This document shows, piece by piece, positions 17,393 to 33,436 of a stretch of 33,436 nt of DNA (positions are counted from its first letter, which is position 1; the number at the start of each line of letters is the position of its first letter). The stretch covers positions 1-33,436 of the forward strand of contig JACCRK010000378.1 of assembly GCA_013813565.1 (NCBI GenBank), given 5' to 3'. The notes under the pieces are model-generated. The model saw only the letters and a program-made list of their open reading frames with translations, was not told where the DNA came from and made no database searches. The translations under genes and the position numbers were made by a program. The DNA comes from Herpetosiphonaceae bacterium (lineage in GTDB: Bacteria > Chloroflexota > Chloroflexia > Chloroflexales > Herpetosiphonaceae).

Positions 17393-19591
17393 TTAGGCCG
17401 GAACTTGATCCTTCTTGTCGCGGTCCCAGTGGCGATGCTGGGCGATTGCATCAATAAAGCTTTGGGCAAAGCCGCTATCGCCGGCCTGGTGGCGCACCGT
17501 GACAACGCCTTTGTCGCTGGTGACCTGGTTTTGCGATGCCGCGCCGCTGAGCTCAACGCCGGTGATATTCGTGCGCATCAGCAGGTCAATCCCCTCATCG
17601 CTGGCGCCAATCGGCTTGCAGTGCTTGAAGGCCTCGTTGAGGAAATGCAGCGCCTCGCCGCTGGTCTGCAAGGTTACCATACTCTGCTTGCCGCCAGCAA
17701 CATACACGGCATCGTACATGATCGATGCGGTGGTCAGGAAGTTTTTATCGACCTTCACCTCCTGGCCGTCGCCGCTCTTGATGCTGCCCAGATGTTTCGA
17801 GACAATCTCAACCTGGGCGCCAGCCGCTTGAAGGGCGGTCTTGATCTGCAGCAGGGCGCTGTGGTCGAAGCCGGCGGCGGCCAGAATCGCAATCTTGCGG
17901 GTTTTAATCGAATCCTTGACGGTGTTTTCCATGCTCAGCGCCGGTGAGCGCCCTGGCGCCGCAGCCCCGCGCCGGCTGCCTGGCTTCGGGGCCGCCGACT
18001 CGCTGAGGTAGCTGAGATCGCCGCTAAACTCGGTCACGCCAATCTCTCTGGCCACCCGTGCGGCAAACTCCTGGTCAACATTGGCCGCCAGCTCGATCAT
18101 CCGCTGGCGAATGTGCATATGCTCGACCTTGCCCAGTTCAAACTGCAGCGCCTGCACAATATGCTCTTTTTCAACCGCGGACTGGCTGTTCCAGAAGAGC
18201 GTGGCCTGGGTGAAATGGTCGTTGAAGCTCTCGCTGCGCTCACGCACCTTGGCCGCATCGATGGTCTCGGCATGGCTCACAAAACCCTGCATCGCCTCGG
18301 GCGCGTGCATCGGACAGCCGCCGCCAAGCGAGTTCGGCTCGTAGTTAACCCGGCCTTTATTGATCGTCTGGCGCATATAGCCGTCGCGCTGATTGTTGTG
18401 GACCGCCGCGACCGGGCGGTTGATCGGAATCTCCGCAAAGTTTGGCCCGCCCAGCCGAATCAGCTGGGTGTCCAGGTAGGAAAACAGCCGTCCCTGGAGC
18501 AGCGGATCGTTGCTGAAATCGATGCCTGGCACGATGTGGCCGGGGTGAAACGCGGCCTGCTCGGTCTCGGCAAAGAAGTTATCCGGGTTGCGATTGAGCG
18601 TCATCTTGCCGATTTTGCGGACTGGCACCAGCTCCTCGGGAATAATCTTGGTCGCGTCAAGCAGGTCAAAGTCGAACGAGTCGGCATCGGCCTCCTCGAC
18701 GATCTGCACGCCCAGCTCATACTCGGGGTAGGCGCCCTTCTCAATCGCCTCCCACAGATCGCGCCGATTGAAGTCCGGGTCTTTTCCGGCGATTTTCTGG
18801 GCCTCATCCCACACCAGCGAGTGCATGCCCAGCAGCGGCTTCCAATGGAATTTGATAAAGCGCGATGTGCCGGCCGCGTTGATGAAGCGGAACGTATGCA
18901 CACCAAAGCCCTCCATCATGCGGTAGCTGCGGGGCAGGGCCCGATCTGAGAGAACCCACATCACCATATGCATGGACTCAGGCATCAGCGAGATAAAATC
19001 CCAAAAGTTGTCGTGGGCCGCCGAAGCCTGCGGCATCTCGTTGTGCGGCTCGGGCTTAACCGCGTGAACCAGATCGGGGAACTTGATCGCATCCTGAATG
19101 AAGAAGACCGGCATATTGTTGCCCACGAGGTCGAAGTTGCCATCTTCGGTATAGAATTTCGTGGCGAACCCGCGGGCATCGCGCACGGTGTCGGCCGACC
19201 CACGAAAGCCGGCGACCGTGGAGAAGCGCACAAAAACCGGTGTCTGAACCTGCGGGTCCTGGAGAAACTTGGCTTTGGTGTACTCAGCCAGCGACTCATA
19301 CACCTGAAAATAGCCGTGGGCCGCCGATCCGCGGGCGTGGACAATCCGCTCGGGAATGCGCTCGTGGTCAAAGTGGGTCATCTTTTCGCGGAAGATAAAA
19401 TCTTCCAGCAAGGTCGGGCCACGTGGCCCCGCCTTCAGCGAATTGTGATTATCGGCAATTCGCACGCCCTGGTCGGTGGTAAGGTAGGTGCCCTCGGGGT
19501 GTTCGCGGTGGTTTTCTAAGGCTTCGGTCTTGGCAGTCGCTGGCTCAGAGTTTTGCTTCTCGACATTGGTTGGGCGTTCTCCTTTGTTCAT
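17393..19591 (-). CDS. katE: Large-subunit monofunctional heme catalase (clade 2, HPII type)
   Basis: This enzyme breaks H2O2 into water and O2 in the cytoplasm. The 732-residue length, with a C-terminal DJ-1/PfpI-like domain, is that of clade 2 catalases. The distal His85 is in [12 protein letters not shown], the distal Asn is in [14 protein letters not shown] (158/159), and the heme-ligand Tyr372 is in [10 protein letters not shown] with R368 before it. The extra flavodoxin-like domain starts about residue 585 at [19 protein letters not shown], after a low-complexity linker ([14 protein letters not shown]). I chose ATG 19591 because aaaggag stands seven bases upstream and the protein then begins like other KatE proteins (lysine-rich, then GTYLTTDQG); a longer frame from 19834 is unsupported. 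The N-terminal region is short compared with E. coli HPII. It is monocistronic and divergent from the next gene. Confidence 0.95.
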
Positions 19592-19745
19592 CGGGGGTTC
19601 TCCTTTACTGATTGGTTTGTGTGGCGTAGCACAGACAATCCGCGGACCAACAGTGGGCGTTCGGCGCAATCGTTCTAGCAAGTTGGAAGCCAGCAGGCAC
19701 CTGGCAGCGAACGTTTCCCGCTGGCAGATCCGGTTGCAGGCAGAC

Positions 19746-19773
19746 TTGACGGCCGGGTTGGGGCAAGTAGAAT
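19746..19773 (+). promoter_or_regulatory. Sigma-70-type promoter for the gene at 19839
   Basis: TTGACG (19746-19751) and TAGAAT (19768-19773) each match consensus at five of six bases, with a 16-base spacer. The expected start of transcription is about 60 bases before the ATG at 19839. I saw no equally good promoter for catalase on the other strand of the 19592-19838 gap. Confidence 0.55.
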
Positions 19774-19838
19774 AGGCTGATGTTCCATCCCAAACCGCTG
19801 CGCGCAAGCGACCATGGCCAATAACGGAGAACAACCTA

Positions 19839-21377: not shown

Positions 21378-21496
21378 AGAGATATTCAAATGCCTCTGGC
21401 GATTGCGACAACCAACCCACCTTCAACACCAATGGCCTGATCGTTAGGTTCGATCCAACTACTTATCCGAACCTGATTGCCTGCATCTAGCGATTG

Positions 21497-21513
21497 TGAA
21501 AGCGATTTCAATG
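21497..21513 (-). promoter_or_regulatory. LacI-type operator O2, overlapping the lacI-family start codon
   Basis: This is an exact inverted copy of O1 over 17 bases, ending in the ATG of the regulator gene. Core centres lie 133 bases apart. The position suggests autoregulation by looping or by a roadblock to elongation, and may also affect ribosome binding, since it covers the region where a ribosome site would lie. Confidence 0.8.
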
Positions 21514-22557
21514 ACGAACTCACTTAAAATAGAAGAGATCGCAGCGCTAGCCCAAGTATCGGCGGCCACCGTCTCACGAGTGCTGAACAACTACCCGCAT
21601 GTGCGTCCGGCGCTGCGCGAACGGGTACTCCAGGTCATCAAAGACAACAACTACACCCCGCACGCGGCCGCCCGCAGCCTGGCCAGCAGCCGCACCAAAA
21701 TCATTGGGCTCCTGATCCCACGCAGCGCCGTGGTTGTCTTTGCCGACCCATACTTCCCGCGCATCATTCAAGGCATCACCGAGGCATGTAACCGACTAGG
21801 CTACTACCTGATGCTCTCCATGGTCAGCTCCACGGTTGAAGAAACTTTCTATAAAAACCTGCTCCGTGGCCGCCACTTCGACGGCGTGCTCACCCTGGCC
21901 AGCGACATCGACGACCCAATTTTGCCGGTGGTGATCAAGCAAAATATTCCGCTGGTGATGGTGGGCAACCACCCCTACTTTACCAACATTATTTCGGTAG
22001 ATGTCGACAACCGTCAGGGCGCCTGTATCGCCGTCCAGCATCTGATTGATAGTGGAAACGAGGTTATTGCCACCATCACTGGGCCGCTCAACACCATGGT
22101 TGGCCTGGAGCGGCGCGACGGCTTCAAGCAAGCCCTGCTGCAAAACGGCCGGTCGGTGGTGCCCGAGCTGATTCTTGAGGGCGACTTCACCCAGGAAAGC
22201 GGCTACCAAGCCATGCAGCGGCTGCTGGACCACACCACCCGCCCGAACGCCGTCTTCGTGGCCAACGACACCATGGCCATTGGGGCAATGCGCGCCATCC
22301 ATGATGCCGACCTGCGGGTGCCGGACGATGTATCCCTAGCCAGTTTTGATAATCTTCCAGTGGCGTCGTACGTCAGCCCGGCCCTGACCTCGGTCAACCA
22401 GCCGATGTTTGAGACTGGCGACGTCGCAGCTCAGATCCTTATATCAATGATCGAGGGCACCATGCCAGTGTCTGCCCGAACATTGCTGCCCACCAACCTG
22501 GTAGTGCGCCAGTCATCGGGTGCCGGTAGCCGTAACGCAGGAGGTGCCGCGGACTAA
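21511..22557 (+). CDS. LacI/GalR-family transcriptional regulator of the beta-glucan locus
   Basis: This 348-residue repressor has an N-terminal helix-turn-helix and hinge (KIEEIAALAQVSAATVSRVL, residues 6-25; then HAAARSLAS, 51-59). A periplasmic-binding-like sugar domain follows from about 63 (KIIGLLIP), including SVDVDNRQGACIAVQHLI and VFVANDTMAIGAMRAI. I chose ATG 21511 because the family starts just before the K-I-x-x-I-A motif; the longer frame from GTG 21496 has no ribosome site and would encode the operator. No clear Shine-Dalgarno sequence is present at either. Two identical operators flank its leader, so it very likely represses itself and the downstream genes until an oligosaccharide, perhaps laminaribiose or cellobiose, binds. 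The effector is inferred from neighbours. Confidence 0.94.
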   Translation: MTNSLKIEEIAALAQVSAATVSRVLNNYPHVRPALRERVLQVIKDNNYTPHAAARSLASSRTKIIGLLIPRSAVVVFADPYFPRIIQGITEACNRLGYYLMLSMVSSTVEETFYKNLLRGRHFDGVLTLASDIDDPILPVVIKQNIPLVMVGNHPYFTNIISVDVDNRQGACIAVQHLIDSGNEVIATITGPLNTMVGLERRDGFKQALLQNGRSVVPELILEGDFTQESGYQAMQRLLDHTTRPNAVFVANDTMAIGAMRAIHDADLRVPDDVSLASFDNLPVASYVSPALTSVNQPMFETGDVAAQILISMIEGTMPVSARTLLPTNLVVRQSSGAGSRNAGGAAD

Positions 22558-22658: not shown

Positions 22659-24464
22659 ATGTTTAAGCGCACGCCATTCTTTTCACTGCTGATGATCATG
22701 ATGCTGATTCTGGCCGCCTGTGGTGCCGCTGTCACACCAACGACCGCCCCCAGCGTCGCAACCGAGGTCCCGGCAGTCTCGGGAAACACCGATGCAACCG
22801 CGGCGCCCGATGCCAAGCCAACCGCCGTCCCCGCCGTTGAAGCGACCGCCGTTCCTGCGGTTGAACCGACCGCTGATACCAGTGGCAGTGCCGACGCACT
22901 CAAAGATTACCTGACCGCCTCAACCGAGCAGCAGGCCACCTGGGTCCGCAACTTCAATCCCTTCGTCACCGATCGCCGCTTCCCAACGCTCTATGGCATC
23001 TATGAGCCGCTAATGGTGTACAACACCATCAAGGGCGAGATTGTGCCGTGGCTGGCCACCGAATACACGTGGAGCGACGACAACAAAATCCTGACCTTCA
23101 CTATCCGCGATGGCGTCCTATGGTCGGACGGCAAGCCGTTCAGCGCCAAAGACGTGGCCTACACCTGGAACCTGCTCAAGTCCAACACCGCCCTGGTGAC
23201 CGGCAGCAGCGCCTGGACGTACCTGGACAGTGTCACCGCTACCGACGAAAAAACGGTGGACTTCACCTTCCAGAAAGTGTTCACCCCTGGTGTGTACGAT
23301 ATTATGAACCAGATCATCGTGCCCGAGCACATCTGGTCGACCATCGAAGATCCGGTCAAGTTCACCAACGAGAACCCGGTCGCAACTGGCCCGTTCACCG
23401 AAATCACCCTGTTCCAGAACCAGATCTACGGTGTGGGCAAAAATCCCAACTACTGGCAGGCAGGCAAGCCCTACATCGCTGGTATGCGCTTCCCGGCCTA
23501 CCCAGGCAACGATCAGGCTAACCTGGCCACCATCAACGGTGAGAACGACTGGGCGGGCAACTTCATCCCCGACATCGAGAAGACCTTTGTAGCCAAAGAC
23601 CCGAACAACGGCTACTTCTTCCCGTCTGCTGGCGGCACAGTCTTCCTGTACCTCAACACCACCAAGGCACCATTTGACGATGTCAACGTCCGCAAGGCCA
23701 TCAGCCAGGCGATCGACCGCGACCAGATCGTGGCGGTGGCCATGTACGACTACACCAAGCCCGCCGACGCCACCGGCCTGAGCGACGCCTACCCAAGCTT
23801 CAAGAGCCAGGCGATCGTTGATGCTGGCGACTGGACCACTCTAGATATTGAGAAAGCCAACGCGGCCCTGGACGCCGCCGGCCTGACCCGCGGCGCCGAT
23901 GGCATCCGCACCACCACCGATGGCACCCCGCTGAAGTACGATCTCAACGTGGTCTCGGGCTGGTCCGACTGGGTTTCGGCCTGTGAAATCATGTCCCAGA
24001 ATCTCAAAGAAGTCGGCATTGACGTAACCGTCAAGACCTACGACTTCAGTGCCTGGATCGACAAGGTCAATAAAGGCGAGTTCGATATGTCAATCGGCTG
24101 GAGCACCGGCGGCGCGACCCCAATCAACTTCTACCGCGGCCAGATGTCGAGTGCAACCTTCAAGCCGGTTGGCGAAGTCGCCAGCGAAAACTGGCATCGC
24201 TACGTCAGCAAAGACATGGACGCGCTGATCGAAGAATTCTCCGTAACCTCGGACCCATCCGCCCAGAAGGCGGTTGCCGAGAAGATGCAGGAAGCATTCG
24301 CCGCCGAGGCTCCAGCCGTCCCGCTGTTCCCCGGCCCGATGTGGTTCGAGTACAACACCACGCGCTTCACCGGCTTCCCGACCAAGGATGATCCGTACGC
24401 TTCCGGGTCGCCCTTCAGCACATCTGACCAACTGCTGTTGCTAACCACAGTCAAGCCCAAATAG
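22659..24464 (+). CDS. Family-5 extracellular substrate-binding lipoprotein of a peptide/oligosaccharide ABC transporter
   Basis: This 601-residue binding protein catches the substrate outside the membrane. The signal peptide ends in a lipobox, LILAAC, with Cys21 as the lipid-bearing residue. A Thr/Ala/Pro/Glu/Val linker with a near-duplicated unit (TAVPAVEA, TAVPAVEP, about 46-64) tethers the domain. The body has family SBP_bac_5 traits: NFNPFV near 95-102, LTFTIRDGVLWSDGKPFSAKD-type strand with WSDGKPFSAKDVAYTW, and FDDVNVRKAISQAIDRDQI. Although named for dipeptides, members next to GH1 genes bind cello- or laminari-oligosaccharides in Thermotoga, and the beta-glucosidase and GH16 genes here favour that. 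ATG 22659 follows aaaggag by eight bases. It is 101 bases after the regulator with no terminator between, so a shared transcript is likely. Confidence 0.94.
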   Translation: MFKRTPFFSLLMIMMLILAACGAAVTPTTAPSVATEVPAVSGNTDATAAPDAKPTAVPAVEATAVPAVEPTADTSGSADALKDYLTASTEQQATWVRNFNPFVTDRRFPTLYGIYEPLMVYNTIKGEIVPWLATEYTWSDDNKILTFTIRDGVLWSDGKPFSAKDVAYTWNLLKSNTALVTGSSAWTYLDSVTATDEKTVDFTFQKVFTPGVYDIMNQIIVPEHIWSTIEDPVKFTNENPVATGPFTEITLFQNQIYGVGKNPNYWQAGKPYIAGMRFPAYPGNDQANLATINGENDWAGNFIPDIEKTFVAKDPNNGYFFPSAGGTVFLYLNTTKAPFDDVNVRKAISQAIDRDQIVAVAMYDYTKPADATGLSDAYPSFKSQAIVDAGDWTTLDIEKANAALDAAGLTRGADGIRTTTDGTPLKYDLNVVSGWSDWVSACEIMSQNLKEVGIDVTVKTYDFSAWIDKVNKGEFDMSIGWSTGGATPINFYRGQMSSATFKPVGEVASENWHRYVSKDMDALIEEFSVTSDPSAQKAVAEKMQEAFAAEAPAVPLFPGPMWFEYNTTRFTGFPTKDDPYASGSPFSTSDQLLLLTTVKPK

Positions 24465-24483
24465 CAACGACTAGTCCGCCCAA

Positions 24484-24514
24484 GCAGGTCGGCGGCGTAA
24501 TGCCGCCGCCCTGC
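24484..24514 (+). repeat. Imperfect stem-loop in the gap before the first permease
   Basis: Outer arms gcagg/cctgc (24484-24488, 24510-24514) and inner arms ggcggc/gccgcc (24491-24496, 24502-24507) form a GC-rich hairpin. It ends with gccctaca, the same tail as the palindromes at 25545 and 30203. It may lower read-through so that the binding protein is made in excess of the permeases. Confidence 0.5.
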
Positions 24515-24537
24515 CCTACACGGAAAGGAAAGCAACG

Positions 24538-25515
24538 ATGCGGTATGTTCTACGTCGAATTGGGTTTTACTGCGTTGCCGCCTGGGCTTCGCTCACCCTG
24601 AACTTTCTCATGCCTCGCCTGATGCCCGGAGACCCGGCATCGACCATTTTTGCCCGCTATCGCGGCCAGCTTCGGCCCGAGCAACTTGAAGCCATGAAAG
24701 AAGCGTTCGGCTTCAACGACGCCCCTTTAATTGAACAATACTTCGGCTATCTTTCCCACGCTGTTCGCGGTGACTTCGGCATTTCTATCTCGGCTTTTCC
24801 ATCACCGGTGACCACTGTGATCGGCAGCGGGCTGATCTGGACGCTGTTGATCGGCATCACCGCCCTGGTGATCAGCTTCGTCCTGGGCAGCATGCTTGGG
24901 ATCATAAGCGCCTGGAAGCGTGGCAGCAAGCTGGATAACATCTTTCCGCCGTTGCTGATCTTCCTTGGCTCGTTTCCGTTTTTCTGGCTGGCGATGGTCG
25001 CGCTGTATGTGCTTGGCTTCAAGGCGGGCTGGTTCCCCCTGCGCCACGCCTACTCCGACCGGCTGACGCCCGCCTTCACCTGGCCCTTTATCAGCAGCGT
25101 TATCAGCCATCTCATCCTGCCCGCGCTGTCGATTATCCTGGTCTCGATCGGCGGCTGGGTGCTGGGCATGCGCAACACGATGATCAACGTGCTCGGCGAG
25201 GACTACATCACGCTGGCCTCGGCCAAGGGCCTGTCAACCCGCCGGGTGATGTTCCACTACGCGGCCCGCAACGCCCTGCTGCCCAATATGACCGCCTTCG
25301 GCATGGCCCTCGGCTTCGTACTCGGCGGCCAGATCATCGTTGAAACCGTGTTCTCCTACCCTGGGCTTGGCTACCTGCTCATTCGCGCAGTCAGCAACCT
25401 GGACTATCCGCTGATGCAGGGCATCTTCCTGATGATCACGCTGGCAGTGCTGGGCGCCAATCTCATCGTCGACCTGCTGTATGTTCGCCTGGACCCACGG
25501 GTGCGGGGGAGCTAG
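24538..25515 (+). CDS. ABC transporter permease, DppB/OppB type
   Basis: This 325-residue inner-membrane subunit lines the transport channel with the next permease. It begins with the usual DppB pattern, MRYVLRRIGFY followed by a first helix and MPRLMPGDPA. It has about six hydrophobic segments (for example LIWTLLIGITALVISFVLGS and FPFFWLAMVALYVLGF). The cytoplasmic EAA-type loop that docks on the ATPases is LASAKGLSTRRVMFHYAARN (about 223-242). ATG 24538 follows aaagga by about nine bases. It is 73 bases after the binding-protein gene, with a GC-rich stem-loop in the gap, and 106 bases before the second permease. Substrate is taken to be beta-gluco-oligosaccharide from the neighbouring GH1 and GH16 genes; the sequence alone would equally fit peptides. 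Confidence 0.94.
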   Translation: MRYVLRRIGFYCVAAWASLTLNFLMPRLMPGDPASTIFARYRGQLRPEQLEAMKEAFGFNDAPLIEQYFGYLSHAVRGDFGISISAFPSPVTTVIGSGLIWTLLIGITALVISFVLGSMLGIISAWKRGSKLDNIFPPLLIFLGSFPFFWLAMVALYVLGFKAGWFPLRHAYSDRLTPAFTWPFISSVISHLILPALSIILVSIGGWVLGMRNTMINVLGEDYITLASAKGLSTRRVMFHYAARNALLPNMTAFGMALGFVLGGQIIVETVFSYPGLGYLLIRAVSNLDYPLMQGIFLMITLAVLGANLIVDLLYVRLDPRVRGS

Positions 25516-25544
25516 CAGCTGCCCGAAGAGATCTGCGGAATGCC

Positions 25545-25603
25545 GGCGGGTACGGAGACCCGCCCTACAGGCGAATCATGTACGGCGGGTCTCTGTACCC
25601 GCC
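25545..25603. repeat. Paired palindromic elements between the two permease genes
   Basis: Two 20-base hairpins (25545-25564 and 25584-25603), each with arms ggcgggt/acccgcc and a six-base loop, stand in opposite orientation 19 bases apart. They differ by one base when aligned as inverted copies, so the whole 59-base block can also fold as one long hairpin. A third copy is at 30203-30228. Confidence 0.75.
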
Positions 25604-25621
25604 CACTAAAGAGGCACTACT

Positions 25622-26635
25622 ATGCAAGAACACGCCAACGATCCAGCGGCGCTGGTCCTGAGCGAAGACAAAGCCAAGCCAACCAGCCAGCCGGCTTCAG
25701 CCTTTGCGGCTCGCTTTGGTTGGCTGATCGCGATTTTGCGCAATCCCAAGGCCTTGATTGGGTTGGTGATCATGGTAGTGTTTGTGTTCACGGCCGCCTT
25801 TGCCCCGGTGATCGCCAGACACGATCCGAATAAATTTGTCGGGCGCCCGCACCAGGCGCCCTCGGCCAAACACTGGTTTGGCACCACCGGCCAGGGCAAA
25901 GATGTGTTTTCCCAGACCGTCTGGGGCGCTCGCACCTCGCTCATGGTGGGCTTTGGCACCGGCTTGCTCGTCACCCTACTGGGCATCATCATGGGCATGA
26001 CCGCCGGCTACTTCGGCGGCTGGATCGATGATGTGCTTTCGCTGCTCACCAACGTGGTGCTGATTATTCCCGGCACGCCGCTGCTCGCCATTATGGCGGC
26101 CTTTCTGGCGCCGGGGAAATTCACCATCATCCTTGTGCTCAGCGTGATCGGCTGGGCGTGGCCCGCACGGGTGCTGCGCTCCCAGACCCTCAGCCTGCGC
26201 ACCAAGGATTTCGTGGCGTCATCGATTGTGTCTGGCGAAGGCCACTTCAACATCATCTTCCGTGAGATCCTGCCCAACATGACTTCGTTGATCGTGTCGG
26301 GCATGTTTGGCTCGATCATCTACGCCATCGGTGCCGAGACCGGCCTAAGCTTTCTCGGCCTGACCAACATCAGCGATGTCACCTGGGGCAGCAACCTCTA
26401 CTGGGCCCAGAACAACGCCGGACTGCTGGTCGGAGCCTGGTGGACGATTGTGCCATCGGGTCTGTGCGTGGCCTTGATCGCCTTCGCCCTGGCTATGATC
26501 AACTATGCGATGGATGAAATCACCAATCCGCGGTTGCGGGCAGAAAAGGAACTTTCCAATGTCTTCAAACAACGCAGCACTCTTGCCACGCCAGTCGTTC
26601 GTGCAGCCAAACGAGGCGTTGCTGACGGTCGATGA
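25622..26635 (+). CDS. ABC transporter permease, DppC/OppC type
   Basis: This is the second channel subunit, 337 residues. An N-terminal cytoplasmic tail of about 40 residues leads to the first helix (ALIGLVIMVVFVFTAAFAPVIA), then the DppC hallmarks HWFGTTGQGKDVFSQTVWGA and SLMVGFGTGLLVTLLGIIMG. The EAA loop is SSIVSGEGHFNIIFREILPN (about 200-219). The WTIVPSGLCVALIAFALAMI stretch and NYAMDEITNPRLR close the membrane part. ATG 25622 follows aaagagg by about seven bases. The 3' end overlaps the next gene by 77 bases if that gene starts at 26559; the extra tail (about 25 residues after ELSNVF) is beyond the conserved family end. It works with the DppB-type subunit and two ATPases. Confidence 0.94.
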   Translation: MQEHANDPAALVLSEDKAKPTSQPASAFAARFGWLIAILRNPKALIGLVIMVVFVFTAAFAPVIARHDPNKFVGRPHQAPSAKHWFGTTGQGKDVFSQTVWGARTSLMVGFGTGLLVTLLGIIMGMTAGYFGGWIDDVLSLLTNVVLIIPGTPLLAIMAAFLAPGKFTIILVLSVIGWAWPARVLRSQTLSLRTKDFVASSIVSGEGHFNIIFREILPNMTSLIVSGMFGSIIYAIGAETGLSFLGLTNISDVTWGSNLYWAQNNAGLLVGAWWTIVPSGLCVALIAFALAMINYAMDEITNPRLRAEKELSNVFKQRSTLATPVVRAAKRGVADGR

Positions 26636-27601
26636 TCTGTGCGTGGAGTACCGCACGCCACGTGGCCCGGTGCGCGCGGTCGACCATGTCTCGTTCTCGA
26701 TCGCCCACGGCGAAGTGTTCGGGCTGGCCGGCGAGTCGGGCAGCGGCAAATCCACGATCGCCCACGCCATCATGCGAATCTTGCACCCGCCAGCGGTGAT
26801 CACCGGCGGCCATGTGAATTTCTCCGGCGACGATGTGCTGGAGATGGATGGCGATGAGCTGGCGCGCTTTCGCTGGCGCGATGTCTCGATGGTGTTTCAG
26901 AGCGCCATGAACGCGCTCAACCCGGTGATGACGATCGGCGAGCAGATCTGCGATGTGATCCAGTGCCATCTGCGGCTGAGCAAGGCTGACAGCATGGATA
27001 AGGCCGCCCACCTGCTCGATCTGGTCGGCATTGAGCGCAGCCGCCTGGCGGCCTATCCGCACCAGCTTTCGGGCGGCATGCGCCAGCGCGCCGTGATCGC
27101 CATCGCCCTGGCGCTTAACCCGCCGCTGATGATTATGGACGAGCCGACCACGGCGCTGGACGTCGTGGTCCAGAAAGAGATCCTCCAGCAGATCAGCGAT
27201 CTGAAAGACAAGATGGGTTTTTCGATCCTGTTTATCACTCACGATATGTCGCTGATGGTCGAGTTCTCCGACCGCATCGGGATTATGTACGCTGGCGAGA
27301 TTGTCGAGACGGCTGACGCCCACGATGTCTTCAATAACCCGCAGCATCCCTACACCCGTGGCCTGATGAGCTCGTTTCCTTCGCTGGTCGGCCCCAAGGT
27401 CAAGCTGACCGGCATCCCCGGCTCGCCGCCTGACATGGGCAAGCCACCAAGCGGCTGCCGTTTTCACCCGCGCTGCGACCAAGCCATGGCGATCTGCTCC
27501 CTGCAGCGACCGGCGCTGCGTGAGGTTGCGCCGGTCCACCGTGCCGCCTGCCATCTCTATGAGCTAACCGGCGTTACGCCGCGAACCGAGCGAGGTACCC
27601 T

Positions 27602-27605
<4 letters not shown>
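26559..27605 (+). CDS. ABC transporter ATPase, DppD/OppD type
   Basis: This 348-residue cytoplasmic ATPase powers uptake together with the DppF-type subunit. It has Walker [11 protein letters not shown]-loop [13 protein letters not shown], signature LSGGMRQR, Walker [13 protein letters not shown] and H-loop FITHD. The C-terminal oligopeptide-transporter domain has [15 protein letters not shown] and a final ACHLY; four cysteines spaced like this bind an iron-sulfur cluster in some relatives. I chose ATG 26559 because aaaagga ends eight bases upstream and a longer frame from 26505 has none; the start nevertheless lies 77 bases inside the DppC gene. The in-frame TTG near 26620 would remove the overlap but has no clear site. 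The stop overlaps the start of the next gene (atga). Confidence 0.94.
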
Positions 27606-28618
<1,013 letters not shown>

Positions 28619-28709
28619 TCTGACCCAGACTTGAGAATAATGTTCCTCTTGGATGCTCCAATGTGAGCAGGCCTGGATTTGTAGCGCCCAACAGCGCGAA
28701 GGAGTTTGT

Positions 28710-30080
28710 ATGTCTCTATCCCGTTTTCCGACCGACTTCCTGTGGGGTGCGGCAACCTCGTCGTATCAGATCGAGGGAGCCTGGAACGAAGATGGCCGCG
28801 GCGAGTCGATCTGGGATCGCTTCAGCCGTCAGCCTGGCGCGATCAAAGATGGCAGCAATGGTGATGTGGCCTGTGACCACTACCACCGCTGGCGCGACGA
28901 TATCGCGATCATGAAGCAGCTTGGGCTGCAGGTCTATCGCTTTTCGATCGCCTGGCCGCGCATCCTGCCAAACGGCCGTGGCGCGGTCAACCAGAAGGGC
29001 CTGAAGTTCTATAGCGACCTGGTTGATGAGCTGCTAGCCAATGACATTGTGCCGTTTGCCACCCTCTACCACTGGGATCTCCCCCAAACCTTGCAGGATG
29101 AGGGTGGCTGGGCGGTGCGCTCCACCGCCGAGGCCTTTGTTGAGTACGTCGATGTCGTCACCAGCGCCCTGGGCGGCCGGGTCAAGCAGTGGATCACCCA
29201 CAACGAGCCGTGGTGCGCCAGCATTCTGGGCTACCAGAATGGCGAGCACGCCCCTGGCCTGCAAGACTGGCCCTCGGCGCTGGCCGCCAGCCACCATCTG
29301 CTGCTCTCGCACGGCTGGGCGGTCGATGTGATCCGGCGCAACAGCCCCGGAGCGCAGGTCGGCATCACGCTGAATCTGACTCCGGCTGAGCCGGCCTCGT
29401 CCAGCCAGCACGACCAGGAGGCAACCCGCCACTTCGATGGGTTTTTCAACCGCTGGTTTCTCGACCCGATCTACGGCCGCGGCTACCCGGCGGATATGGT
29501 CGCCGACTATGCCGCCGCAGGCCGTCTGCCCGGCGGCATGGCCTTTGTTCAGGCCGGCGACCTGGAGACGATCGCCGCCGCCACCGATTTTCTGGGCATC
29601 AACTACTACAGCCGGGCCGTGCTGCGCAACAGCCAGGTACCCGAGGCCGATAACGAGCCGCGCAGCGTTTTCCAGGCGCCCGAAAACGAGTGGACCGAGA
29701 TGGGCTGGGAGGTCTATGCCGATGGCCTGTACCAGCTGCTGATACGGGTGCAGGCCGACTACAACCCGGCCAATATCTACATCACCGAGAACGGCGCCAG
29801 CTACTCCGACGGCCCCAACGGCGACGGCAAGGTCCATGACCACCGGCGCATCCAGTACCTGCACGACCACCTGGTGGCATGCGAGCGGGCCATCCAGGCC
29901 GGGGTCAAGCTGGGCGGCTACTTCGCCTGGTCGCTGATGGATAACTTTGAGTGGGGCTGGGGCTACAAGCAGCGCTTTGGCATGGTCTGGGTCGACTACG
30001 AAACCCAGCAGCGCGTCCCCAAGGAAAGCGCCCACTGGTACAGCCGCGTGATCGCGCACAATACGGTTCAGCCAGTCTAA
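28710..30080 (+). CDS. GH1 beta-glucosidase, cytoplasmic
   Basis: This 456-residue enzyme cuts glucose from the non-reducing end of beta-linked gluco-oligosaccharides by a retaining mechanism. It starts FPTDFLWGAATSSYQIEGAW, the family N-terminal signature, and has no signal peptide. Glu166 in THNEPW is the acid/base and Glu360 in YITENGAS is the nucleophile. Further substrate contacts are in the SLMDNFEWGWGYKQRFG segment (408-424), typical of glucose-binding GH1 members. ATG 28710 follows gaaggag by five bases; a longer frame from 28653 is unsupported. Placed right after an oligosaccharide-type ABC transporter and before a secreted GH16, it most likely hydrolyses imported laminaribiose, cellobiose or longer products. 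GH1 specificity is broad, so galactoside activity cannot be excluded. Confidence 0.96.
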   Translation: MSLSRFPTDFLWGAATSSYQIEGAWNEDGRGESIWDRFSRQPGAIKDGSNGDVACDHYHRWRDDIAIMKQLGLQVYRFSIAWPRILPNGRGAVNQKGLKFYSDLVDELLANDIVPFATLYHWDLPQTLQDEGGWAVRSTAEAFVEYVDVVTSALGGRVKQWITHNEPWCASILGYQNGEHAPGLQDWPSALAASHHLLLSHGWAVDVIRRNSPGAQVGITLNLTPAEPASSSQHDQEATRHFDGFFNRWFLDPIYGRGYPADMVADYAAAGRLPGGMAFVQAGDLETIAAATDFLGINYYSRAVLRNSQVPEADNEPRSVFQAPENEWTEMGWEVYADGLYQLLIRVQADYNPANIYITENGASYSDGPNGDGKVHDHRRIQYLHDHLVACERAIQAGVKLGGYFAWSLMDNFEWGWGYKQRFGMVWVDYETQQRVPKESAHWYSRVIAHNTVQPV

Positions 30081-30267: not shown

Positions 30268-33200
30268 ATGAATGTCCATCGAACCGTCGCTTTTTTTGTG
30301 CTGCTGAGCCTGTTTGTGGCCAGTGCAATGGTTCCGTCTATGCCGCGTGCCATCGCGGCGGCCGCCCTGCCGGTGGTCGACAACTTCGAGGCGCCGCTGG
30401 TCACCAACGGCCAGGCCGGCGCCATCCCAATCGGCTTTTTCGTCGCCAAGGACCCCAACCCCGCCACCACGACAACCTTTGGCCGCAGCACCACCCCGCC
30501 GGTGGCGCTGCCAGGGTCGCCTGTTGGCAACAACGTGCTGAAGACCGACTTCAATGTCGTCTCATATGGCGTGGTGATCCACGCCTTCGAGAACGCCGCG
30601 GTCAACGAGTGGGTCACCCAGGACTGGAGCCCCTACGCCGGAATGTCGTTCTGGATCTACGGCAGCAACAGCGGCACCAGACTGTTTATCGATGTCCTCG
30701 ATAACCGCAATGACGACTCGACCACCGACGATGCCGAGCGCTACTCGGTCGAGTTCCTCGACAACTTCAGCGGTTGGCAGCTGAAGCAGTTCCCGTTCAA
30801 CACGTTCAATCGCAAAAACGTCGGCAACGGAGCGCCCAACGATGGCTTCACCCTGAGCCAGGTCCACGGCTGGGCCTTCGGCGCGGTGGCCACCGCCGGC
30901 AATACCTACACCTACTATCTCGACGACGTGCAGGTCTATGGCGTCGCCCCGCCGATCCCGCTGGCGGTCAGCCTGTCGAATGTCAGCTACGCCGCTCAGG
31001 AGGGCAGCGTCGCCAGCGCGAAGGTCAAGCTGACCAAAATCGCGACCCACCCGGTGACGGTGAGTTTCGCGACCGCGCCCGCCCAGGCCACCCCTGGCCG
31101 CGACTACACATCGACCTCCGGCACCGTCACAATCCCCACTGGCCAGCTCGAGCAGAGCATTCCGGTCACAACCCTGGAGGATGGCAAGTATGAGGGCGAT
31201 GAGGGCATTCTGATTAGCATAACCAACCCGATCAGCGCCGAGCTGGGCGTGCTCAGGACCGCCCGGATCGCCATTAACGACAATGAGATCTACGACCCGC
31301 TGCTGCTCAACGATTTCGAGGGGCCGTCAGCGGGCTGGGATAGCACCGCTGGCGTCACCCTGACCCACCGCGAGATTATGGCCGGCGATCCGCAGTCCCT
31401 GCCCGGCCAGGGCGCCTACGAGGGTGTGCTCGACGCCACCTACACCGGCAGCGGGGCCGCGTTTGGCCGCACGTTCGCCCAGGGCATCGACCTGCGCGGC
31501 AACCCAGGCATGAGCTTCTGGTACTACGGCCGCAACACCGGCCAGCCAGTCACCATGCAGCTGCTCGACAACAGCGCCGCCGACCCCGGCCCGACGGGCT
31601 GGAACGAGGTCTGGAGCGATGAGTTCAACACCGCCGCTGGCACCGCTCCCAACCCGGAAAATTGGACCCACGAGATTGGCGATGGCACCGCCAACGGCAA
31701 TGTGGGCTGGGGCAACGACGAGCTGGAATACTACACCAACAGCACCGACAACGCCGCCACCGACGGCACGGGCAACCTGGTGATCACTACCCGCGATGTG
31801 TCGGGCACCACCAGCCTGCACTGCTACTACGGCCCCTGCCAGTACACCTCGGCCCGCCTGCTAACGACCAACAAGGCCGAGTTCGCCTACGGGAAGATCG
31901 AGTCGCGGATCAAGGTGCCCCGTGGCGCGGGCCTGTGGCCGGCGTTCTGGTCGCTCGGCACCGATATTGCCCAGGTTGGCTGGCCACAAACCGGCGAGAT
32001 CGACATCATGGAGTTTGTCGGACGCGAGCCCAAGCAGGTCTTTGGGACAATCCACGGCCCCGGCTACGCCGGCGGCCAGAGCTTTGGCAGCATCCACACC
32101 TTTGCCGCCGATGTGCCCGATGACTTCCACACCTTCCGCATCGAGTGGCAGCCAAATTTGATCAACTGGTACGTTGACAATATTTTGTACCACACCGCCG
32201 AGCCATCCGATGTCGCCCCAGACGAGTGGGTCTTCAATCACCCGTTCTTCCTGCTGCTCAACGTGGCGGTCGGCGGCAACTTCGGCGGCCCGGTCGGCAA
32301 CAACACGGTGTTCCCGCAGGAGATGAAGGTCGACTATGTCCGCGTCTACCAGGCCGACGACAGCGCCGAGCGCTTTGAGAGCAGCTTCAACGATGACTTC
32401 ACTGGCTGGCAGAAGATTGAGCTGCCCTTCAGCAGCTTCACCCGCTCCGGTGTCCAGCCGCCCGACGCCCCCAACGATGGCCTGAGCCTGAACGCGGTGC
32501 GCGGCTATCGCTTCGTCCTGCCGACCGCCGCCAGCGCCACCGTCTCGATCGACCAGGTGCGGGTGATCTCTGGCTGTGAGAATGAGCTCACCGTCACGAG
32601 CTCGGCTGCCAGCGGCCCCGGATCGCTGCCAGCGACCCTCGGCGAGGTCTGCGCCAGTGGCGTTGTGCGCTTCGCCCCCAGCCTGGCCAACAGCACCATC
32701 GTGCTGACCGCTGATCTGACCCTGGAGAGCAGCGTCACCATCGACGGCAGCGACGCCCCCGGCCTGGCGATCAGCGGCGCCGACACCTATCGCACGCTCG
32801 TCGTCAACCCCCTGGCCAGCGCCACCGTCAAGGCGATCACCCTGACCAACGGCTATGGCTTCCAGCTCGGCGGCGGTGTCCTCAACAACGGCACCCTGAC
32901 CCTCGACCACGTCACGGTGGCCAACAACCGGGTCACCACCGACGGCACTGATTTCTGGAAGGGTGGCGCAGGCATCTACAGCGGCGAGAATAGCACGCTG
33001 ACCGTGATCAACAGCACCATCCGCGACAACAAGGTCACCGCTGGCAACGGCGGCGGCGTGTACGCGTTCTTCAACAGCACCGTCACCATCAGCAACACGA
33101 CGATCTACAGCAACACCACCAACGAGGTCGGCGGCGGGCTGCGCCTGCTGAGCAACGCCAACGTGGTCAACAGCACGATCAGCGGCAACAGCACCACCGG

Positions 33201-33436
33201 CTGGCACGGCGGCGCGGTCTTCCACACCGACGGCGTGCTCAATCTGGTCAACACCAGCGTCGTAAGCAACACCGCCCCAGGCGGCACCACCGGCGGCATG
33301 TTTGTCGGCACCTTCACCGCCTCCAACGCCACCCTGACCCTGCGCAACAGCCTTGTGGTTGGCAACAGCGGCGGGCAGTGCCTGGTATTTGACGAAGGCG
33401 CCGGAACTGTCACCCTGTCCTCGCTCGGCCACAACC
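30268..33436 (+). CDS. Secreted multidomain GH16 beta-1,3-glucanase (laminarinase-like) with CBM-like, Calx-beta and beta-helix parts, 3' end cut
   Basis: This exported enzyme likely cuts beta-1,3-glucan outside the cell. The frame is open from ATG 30268 (ggagga seven bases upstream) to the window end: 1056 residues without a stop. A signal peptide (1 to about 31) ends near AIAAA. A carbohydrate-binding-like beta-sandwich spans about 35-226 and a Calx-beta domain about 233-338 (TPGRDYTSTSGTVTIP). A second sandwich copy begins at about 346 but breaks off at LLDN (435). The GH16 domain, about 442-696, follows: WSDEFN, LWPAFWSLG, and catalytic GEIDIMEFVG with Glu577 nucleophile and Glu582 acid/base. 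The rest of the sandwich resumes at 697-768. From about 770 a Ser/Thr/Asn-rich right-handed beta-helix runs on (GGGVLNNGTLTLDHVTV, NSTIRDN and similar turns). The first domain type resembles CBM11/CIA30-like folds; that assignment is tentative. Confidence 0.93.
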   Translation, partial: MNVHRTVAFFVLLSLFVASAMVPSMPRAIAAAALPVVDNFEAPLVTNGQAGAIPIGFFVAKDPNPATTTTFGRSTTPPVALPGSPVGNNVLKTDFNVVSYGVVIHAFENAAVNEWVTQDWSPYAGMSFWIYGSNSGTRLFIDVLDNRNDDSTTDDAERYSVEFLDNFSGWQLKQFPFNTFNRKNVGNGAPNDGFTLSQVHGWAFGAVATAGNTYTYYLDDVQVYGVAPPIPLAVSLSNVSYAAQEGSVASAKVKLTKIATHPVTVSFATAPAQATPGRDYTSTSGTVTIPTGQLEQSIPVTTLEDGKYEGDEGILISITNPISAELGVLRTARIAINDNEIYDPLLLNDFEGPSAGWDSTAGVTLTHREIMAGDPQSLPGQGAYEGVLDATYTGSGAAFGRTFAQGIDLRGNPGMSFWYYGRNTGQPVTMQLLDNSAADPGPTGWNEVWSDEFNTAAGTAPNPENWTHEIGDGTANGNVGWGNDELEYYTNSTDNAATDGTGNLVITTRDVSGTTSLHCYYGPCQYTSARLLTTNKAEFAYGKIESRIKVPRGAGLWPAFWSLGTDIAQVGWPQTGEIDIMEFVGREPKQVFGTIHGPGYAGGQSFGSIHTFAADVPDDFHTFRIEWQPNLINWYVDNILYHTAEPSDVAPDEWVFNHPFFLLLNVAVGGNFGGPVGNNTVFPQEMKVDYVRVYQADDSAERFESSFNDDFTGWQKIELPFSSFTRSGVQPPDAPNDGLSLNAVRGYRFVLPTAASATVSIDQVRVISGCENELTVTSSAASGPGSLPATLGEVCASGVVRFAPSLANSTIVLTADLTLESSVTIDGSDAPGLAISGADTYRTLVVNPLASATVKAITLTNGYGFQLGGGVLNNGTLTLDHVTVANNRVTTDGTDFWKGGAGIYSGENSTLTVINSTIRDNKVTAGNGGGVYAFFNSTVTISNTTIYSNTTNEVGGGLRLLSNANVVNSTISGNSTTGWHGGAVFHTDGVLNLVNTSVVSNTAPGGTTGGMFVGTFTASNATLTLRNSLVVGNSGGQCLVFDEGAGTVTLSSLGHN

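Follow-up and report, generated by a model that had tools for sequence, protein, structure and literature searches.

A GH16 catalytic domain nested inside a CBM11 module, conserved across three bacterial phyla

The locus and its domain layout

The window, meaning the whole 33,436-nucleotide stretch of DNA that was analysed, comes from a Herpetosiphonaceae bacterium of the Chloroflexota. Its last gene begins at 30268 on the plus strand, and the reading frame runs off the end of the contig. The contig end cuts the gene within a beta-helix, leaving the C-terminus and any surface anchor outside the available sequence. Across the protein, Pfam recognizes CBM_11 in two separate stretches together with GH16, Calx-beta and beta-helix domains. 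The features of the gene and of its upstream neighbours are as follows.

21496..22557, plus strand: LacI-family regulator opening the cluster (Pfam LacI and Peripla_BP_3)
22659..28618, plus strand: SBP_bac_5 binding protein, two permeases and two oligo_HPY-type ABC ATPases, probably for oligosaccharide uptake (Pfam)
28653..30080, plus strand: GH1 beta-glucosidase-type gene, a probable functional partner (Pfam Glyco_hydro_1, 580 bits)
30268..33435, plus strand: the gene under study
30268..30369, plus strand: gene start and N-terminal hydrophobic signal peptide, residues 1-34, sequence MNVHRTVAFFVLLSLFVASAMVPSMPRAIAAA (called by visual inspection of the sequence rather than with a predictor)
30370..30945, plus strand: CBM11 copy 1, uninterrupted, residues 35-226 (Pfam CBM_11, 45.9 bits; strand pattern in the predicted model)
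30955..31290, plus strand: Calx-beta domain, residues 230-341 (Pfam Calx-beta, 39.4 bits)
31303..31584, plus strand: first half of CBM11 copy 2, residues 346-439, ending ..LLDNSAAD (best excision 440-695; one CBM_11 match once excised)
31585..32352, plus strand: inserted GH16 domain of the GH16_3 or laminarinase type, residues 440-695 (Pfam GH16, 89 bits; best structurally solved relative, 2hyk)
31996..32013, plus strand: catalytic motif E577-I-D579-I-M-E582 (invariant in 37 aligned GH16 domains)
32353..32571, plus strand: second half of CBM11 copy 2, residues 696-768, starting ADDSAERF.. (Pfam CBM_11 profile positions 109-180 at residues 698-767; excision results)
32572..33435, plus strand: C-terminal right-handed beta-helix, cut by the contig end (Pfam Beta_helix, 38.5 bits)

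Taken as a unit, the LacI regulator, SBP_bac_5 protein, permeases, ABC ATPases, GH1 enzyme and GH16 gene read as a beta-glucan utilisation cluster. Elsewhere in the window, the minus strand encodes an ordinary large catalase with a C-terminal DJ-1/PfpI-like domain (17393-19834).

An intact GH16 domain within the second CBM11

The original prediction read this protein as two copies of one domain, the second split by a complete GH16 domain and the first serving as a built-in control. Pfam, an excision scan, AlphaFold2 and about 40 relatives bear this out, and an intact GH16 is confirmed as nested in the second of two CBM11 modules. The motifs on which the prediction was built are all in frame at the residues it gave. 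When the halves of copy 2 were joined and aligned to copy 1, the score was 192 (BLOSUM62) against a mean of 32 and a maximum of 59 for 2000 shuffles. Taken singly, the first and second halves scored 70 and 129, with shuffled maxima of 64 and 52, respectively. Spliced alignment placed the optimal excision at residues 440-695, where the score reached 199 compared with 129 without excision; the break points first proposed, 437 and 697, lie no more than three residues from this optimum. Once GH16 is removed, copy 2 becomes a single match to the whole CBM_11 domain, with 75 bits over positions 15-180 of the 182 in the profile.

The predicted structures show the same relationship. AlphaFold2 modelled the nested unit (residues 340-772, using 37 sequences from the window and from fetched loci) with a mean pLDDT of 92.2 and a pTM of 0.87, and a longer chain (residues 31-772) with a pLDDT of 90.1 and a pTM of 0.72. 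In the longer model, copy 1 has strands at 125-133 and 138-144, followed by 158-164, 168-176, 201-208 and 214-224, while split copy 2 has strands at 414-422 and 427-434 before the insertion and at 701-708, 712-720, 744-750 and 754-767 after it. Each predicted strand of copy 1 has its counterpart in copy 2, before as well as after the insertion, and in both copies the PFxxF strand is followed by a short helix (177-179 and 721-723). By this pattern, the split copy would share the beta-sandwich of copy 1, as the original prediction had anticipated. The opposing view, that there is no nesting and that the halves are either separate small domains or an assembly or frame artefact, has nothing in its favour beyond the first half being low in identity and can be set aside: two independent half-domains are ruled out by the single CBM_11 match after excision and by both structure models, which are confident and continuous in strand pattern, and mis-assembly is ruled out by the roughly 40 homologues from independent genomes.

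Turning to the guest, the GH16 domain stands at 89 bits against a Pfam cut-off of 22, and its ExDxxE catalytic motif is intact as EIDIME. A Foldseek search of the PDB with the nested model aligned the GH16 part to the jelly-roll fold of 2hyk (TM 0.95 on the target, rmsd 1.7, 50% identity); the matches listed concern GH16 only and are silent on the host fold. From family membership, the enzyme would be a laminarinase-type endo-beta-1,3(4)-glucanase, a putative assignment for both substrate and activity. The GH16_3 laminarinases of Nocardiopsis sp. F96 (2hyk), Thermotoga (3azx/4dfs) and Pyrococcus (2vy0) share about 48-50% identity over the whole catalytic domain, as well as EIDIME. However, those structures are catalytic domains alone, whereas the present GH16 is a guest in CBM11.

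Relatives and origin of the nested arrangement

Relatives were gathered by a scan of genome contigs and by several whole-genome searches, and their architectures were assigned by domain mapping. The homologue search that the original prediction had proposed returned about 40 distinct proteins with the same insertion, from Chloroflexota, Actinomycetota and Deinococcota, in addition to uninterrupted CBM11 copies. The nested protein is present in 7 of the 400 Chloroflexota genomes sampled (with further cases from the contig scan), 14 of 111 Deinococcota, 6 of 247 Acidimicrobiia, 4 of 250 Microbacteriaceae (both halves seen) and one Nitriliruptoraceae. CBM11 is rare throughout these three phyla, and the genomes that carry it are in many cases the ones with the nested protein. 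The insertion point is common to the homologues, falling between ..LDNRAxD and PDTAERF.., and the exit linker, which joins the final GH16 strand (VDYVRVY) to AERF, has a length of exactly five residues in 34 of 39. Mostly, the nested unit is preceded by at least one uninterrupted CBM11 and a Calx-beta domain.

A longer insert in the homologues was considered on the basis of 600-aa tblastn spans and rejected, as parts of the query had aligned to the upstream CBM11 copy instead. MAFFT alignments that mixed uninterrupted and nested sequences placed CBM copies onto GH16 and were left out. Among the other architectures encountered, one protein joins CBM11 and GH16 linearly (L049), and two from other Chloroflexota (L193 and L202) have CBM11-like domains on serine/threonine protein kinase-like proteins, where they are possibly extracellular sensors.

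In the CBM11 tree, one branch with an SH-aLRT of 100 parts 39 split rows, which include a few duplicates of one gene, from 46 uninterrupted rows. The same separation is recovered from the columns before the insertion alone (SH-aLRT 99) and, weakly, from those after it (SH-aLRT 41). Because a single branch sets all split CBM11s apart from the uninterrupted copies, the phylogeny would be explained best by one old insertion into one CBM11 and subsequent spread of the cassette. In the GH16 tree, the nested state needs four changes and the Trueperales group stands apart. That tree does not establish a single origin of the nested GH16 itself, which may nonetheless be compatible with the data: a constrained tree that keeps the nested GH16s and the rows interleaved with them together is not rejected (p-AU 0.256). 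Three stand-alone GH16 proteins (L014, L140 and L141) are placed inside the nested GH16 clade and are probably catalytic domains that escaped from the CBM host.

Role of the split module and comparison with known systems

The host module matches CtCBM11 of Clostridium thermocellum Lic26A-Cel5E (1v0a, 2lro, 6r31) at profile level, with two thirds of the domain covered (E 9e-10). CtCBM11, a binder of beta-1,3-1,4-glucan, has no interruption, while 256 residues are inserted in the split copy; in the 1v0a alignment, this insert falls in the loop carrying CtCBM11 Asp99. The ligand contacts of CtCBM11 are reportedly Tyr22, Tyr53, Tyr129, Tyr152, Asp99, Arg126, Asp128 and Asp146. The split copy has no equivalents of Tyr53, Asp99 and Arg126, and none of these three was found in any of the 39 split copies. 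The alignment is of low identity, and the split copies have indels close to the Tyr53 position; in it, the Tyr53 column is Phe, Trp or Tyr in 46 of 46 uninterrupted copies, the Arg126 column is basic (Lys or Arg) in 39 of 46, and the Asp99 column is Asp in 25 of 46, compared with 0 of 39 split copies in each case. Positions of the fold core are conserved in split and uninterrupted modules alike, and the host has kept many of its hydrophobic core and Gly/Asp positions. Given that the equivalents of the ligand contacts are gone and the fold core is conserved, the split CBM11 has probably lost ordinary CBM11 binding while keeping its fold. The Asp146 column is Trp in 20 of the 39 split copies, and binding through new residues such as this one may occur.

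In relatives belonging to Acidimicrobiia, Nitriliruptoraceae and part of the Trueperaceae, the first half of the split CBM11 contains a second guest of roughly 100-150 residues, which interrupts the hairpin with the Tyr53 equivalent; this is in keeping with a module that has ceased to serve in binding. These second guests are of two unrelated kinds, a beta/EF-loop type (L142, residues 345-550 of a long frame; L150, L152, L153, L154, L012 and L007) and a helical type (L016 and L155), and no family in Pfam or NCBIfam matched them. A tentative generalization, held at slightly under even odds, is that this CBM11 has become a chassis for insertions that gave up binding, took up a hydrolase at one of its former ligand loops and, in these lineages, a second, unrelated guest at another, and spread as a unit across three phyla. 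Also in the genome of the nested protein studied here, a cellulase-like protein (L187, contig C103:502-1038) has an uninterrupted CBM11, arranged linearly and flanked by two discoidin-type domains; it keeps SYGG, RRSDWQP and NPDAAERW, near the CtCBM11 pattern of ligand residues.

The explanation favoured here, with a probability of about 0.55, is that the split CBM11 serves as a rigid frame for the enzyme while the upstream uninterrupted CBM11 binds the substrate, the arrangement stemming from one old insertion and the spread of a cassette. A secreted endo-beta-1,3(4)-glucanase would have arisen when, in a single ancient event, GH16 entered the beta-sandwich loop that carries Asp99 in CtCBM11. 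The cassette of uninterrupted CBM11, Calx-beta and GH16-split CBM11 would then have spread through Chloroflexota, Actinomycetota and Deinococcota. On this view, the split module would no longer be a normal glucan-binding module and could act as a two-point clamp that fixes the orientation of the enzyme, with the uninterrupted upstream copy or copies holding the substrate. Uptake of the products would probably fall to the ABC transporter encoded nearby, with the GH1 beta-glucosidase completing their breakdown.

The original prediction had gone further in proposing that nesting fixes the catalytic cleft rigidly against the binding face. A fixed orientation of GH16 relative to its host is plausible from the higher pTM of the nested unit than of the longer chain with its linear tethers and from the constant length of the exit linker, with the pTM difference lending weak support to rigidity. 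The binding face is where the proposal falters, as split copies are without the CtCBM11 contact equivalents that uninterrupted copies mostly keep. It is unlikely, then, that the split CBM11 still binds glucan and that its cleft and the catalytic cleft are aligned for one chain to span both. Insertion in the Asp99 loop could make the two clefts neighbours, the orientation looks fixed in the models, and much of the host core is conserved; against this stand the three contact columns, each empty in all split copies, and those relatives in which a second foreign domain has replaced the Tyr53-equivalent hairpin.

Less likely again is that the nesting is a frozen accident, tolerated since the GH16 termini are adjacent and offering no gain over a linear tether. 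The stand-alone GH16s within the nested clade imply that the host is dispensable for the enzyme, and the linear CBM11-GH16 protein leans in the same direction. However, the insertion point and the exit-linker length have been kept in about 40 proteins from three phyla, and the core of the host fold has been retained while its ligand residues were lost.

Drawings of carbohydrate-active enzymes (CAZymes) nearly always show the modules as beads on a string, and the function of a CBM is usually assigned by family membership. Here, a family match masks a split module with an enzyme inside, one that probably no longer binds. Annotation pipelines could interpret the arrangement as CBM11-GH16-CBM11 and label both ends as binding modules. 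The nested, linear and stand-alone GH16 relatives provide a natural, phylogenetically replicated set for testing the effects of coupling a catalytic domain rigidly.

No report of GH16, or of any glycoside hydrolase, inside CBM11 was found in the open-access literature; the nesting is widespread and conserved and, as far as that search shows, not previously remarked upon. Catalytic domains that carry an inserted CBM are well documented. They include GH10 xylanases interrupted by CBM4 pairs (Pm25 and Xyn10C) and SusG with CBM58, which are discontinuous too, but there the catalytic domain hosts the CBM. A well-documented nesting of CAZyme domains also occurs in CE20 esterases, where an inserted ancillary beta-sandwich shapes the active site, but in the opposite direction and with different families (PMC12313940). 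The description of the present insertion as uncommon is fair, with the qualification that a precedent exists. The closest is BoPDA, a CE4-type deacetylase of Bacteroides ovatus in which the CE4 domain lies inside a CBM, an arrangement reported as unique to that protein (PMC11713874). As in BoPDA, a catalytic domain sits within a CBM beta-sandwich and the direction of nesting is the same; however, the guest here is GH16 and not CE4, whereas BoPDA is an unrelated enzyme, not a glycoside hydrolase, with a proposed role in capsule biosynthesis and a CBM not filed as CBM11 (PMC11713874).
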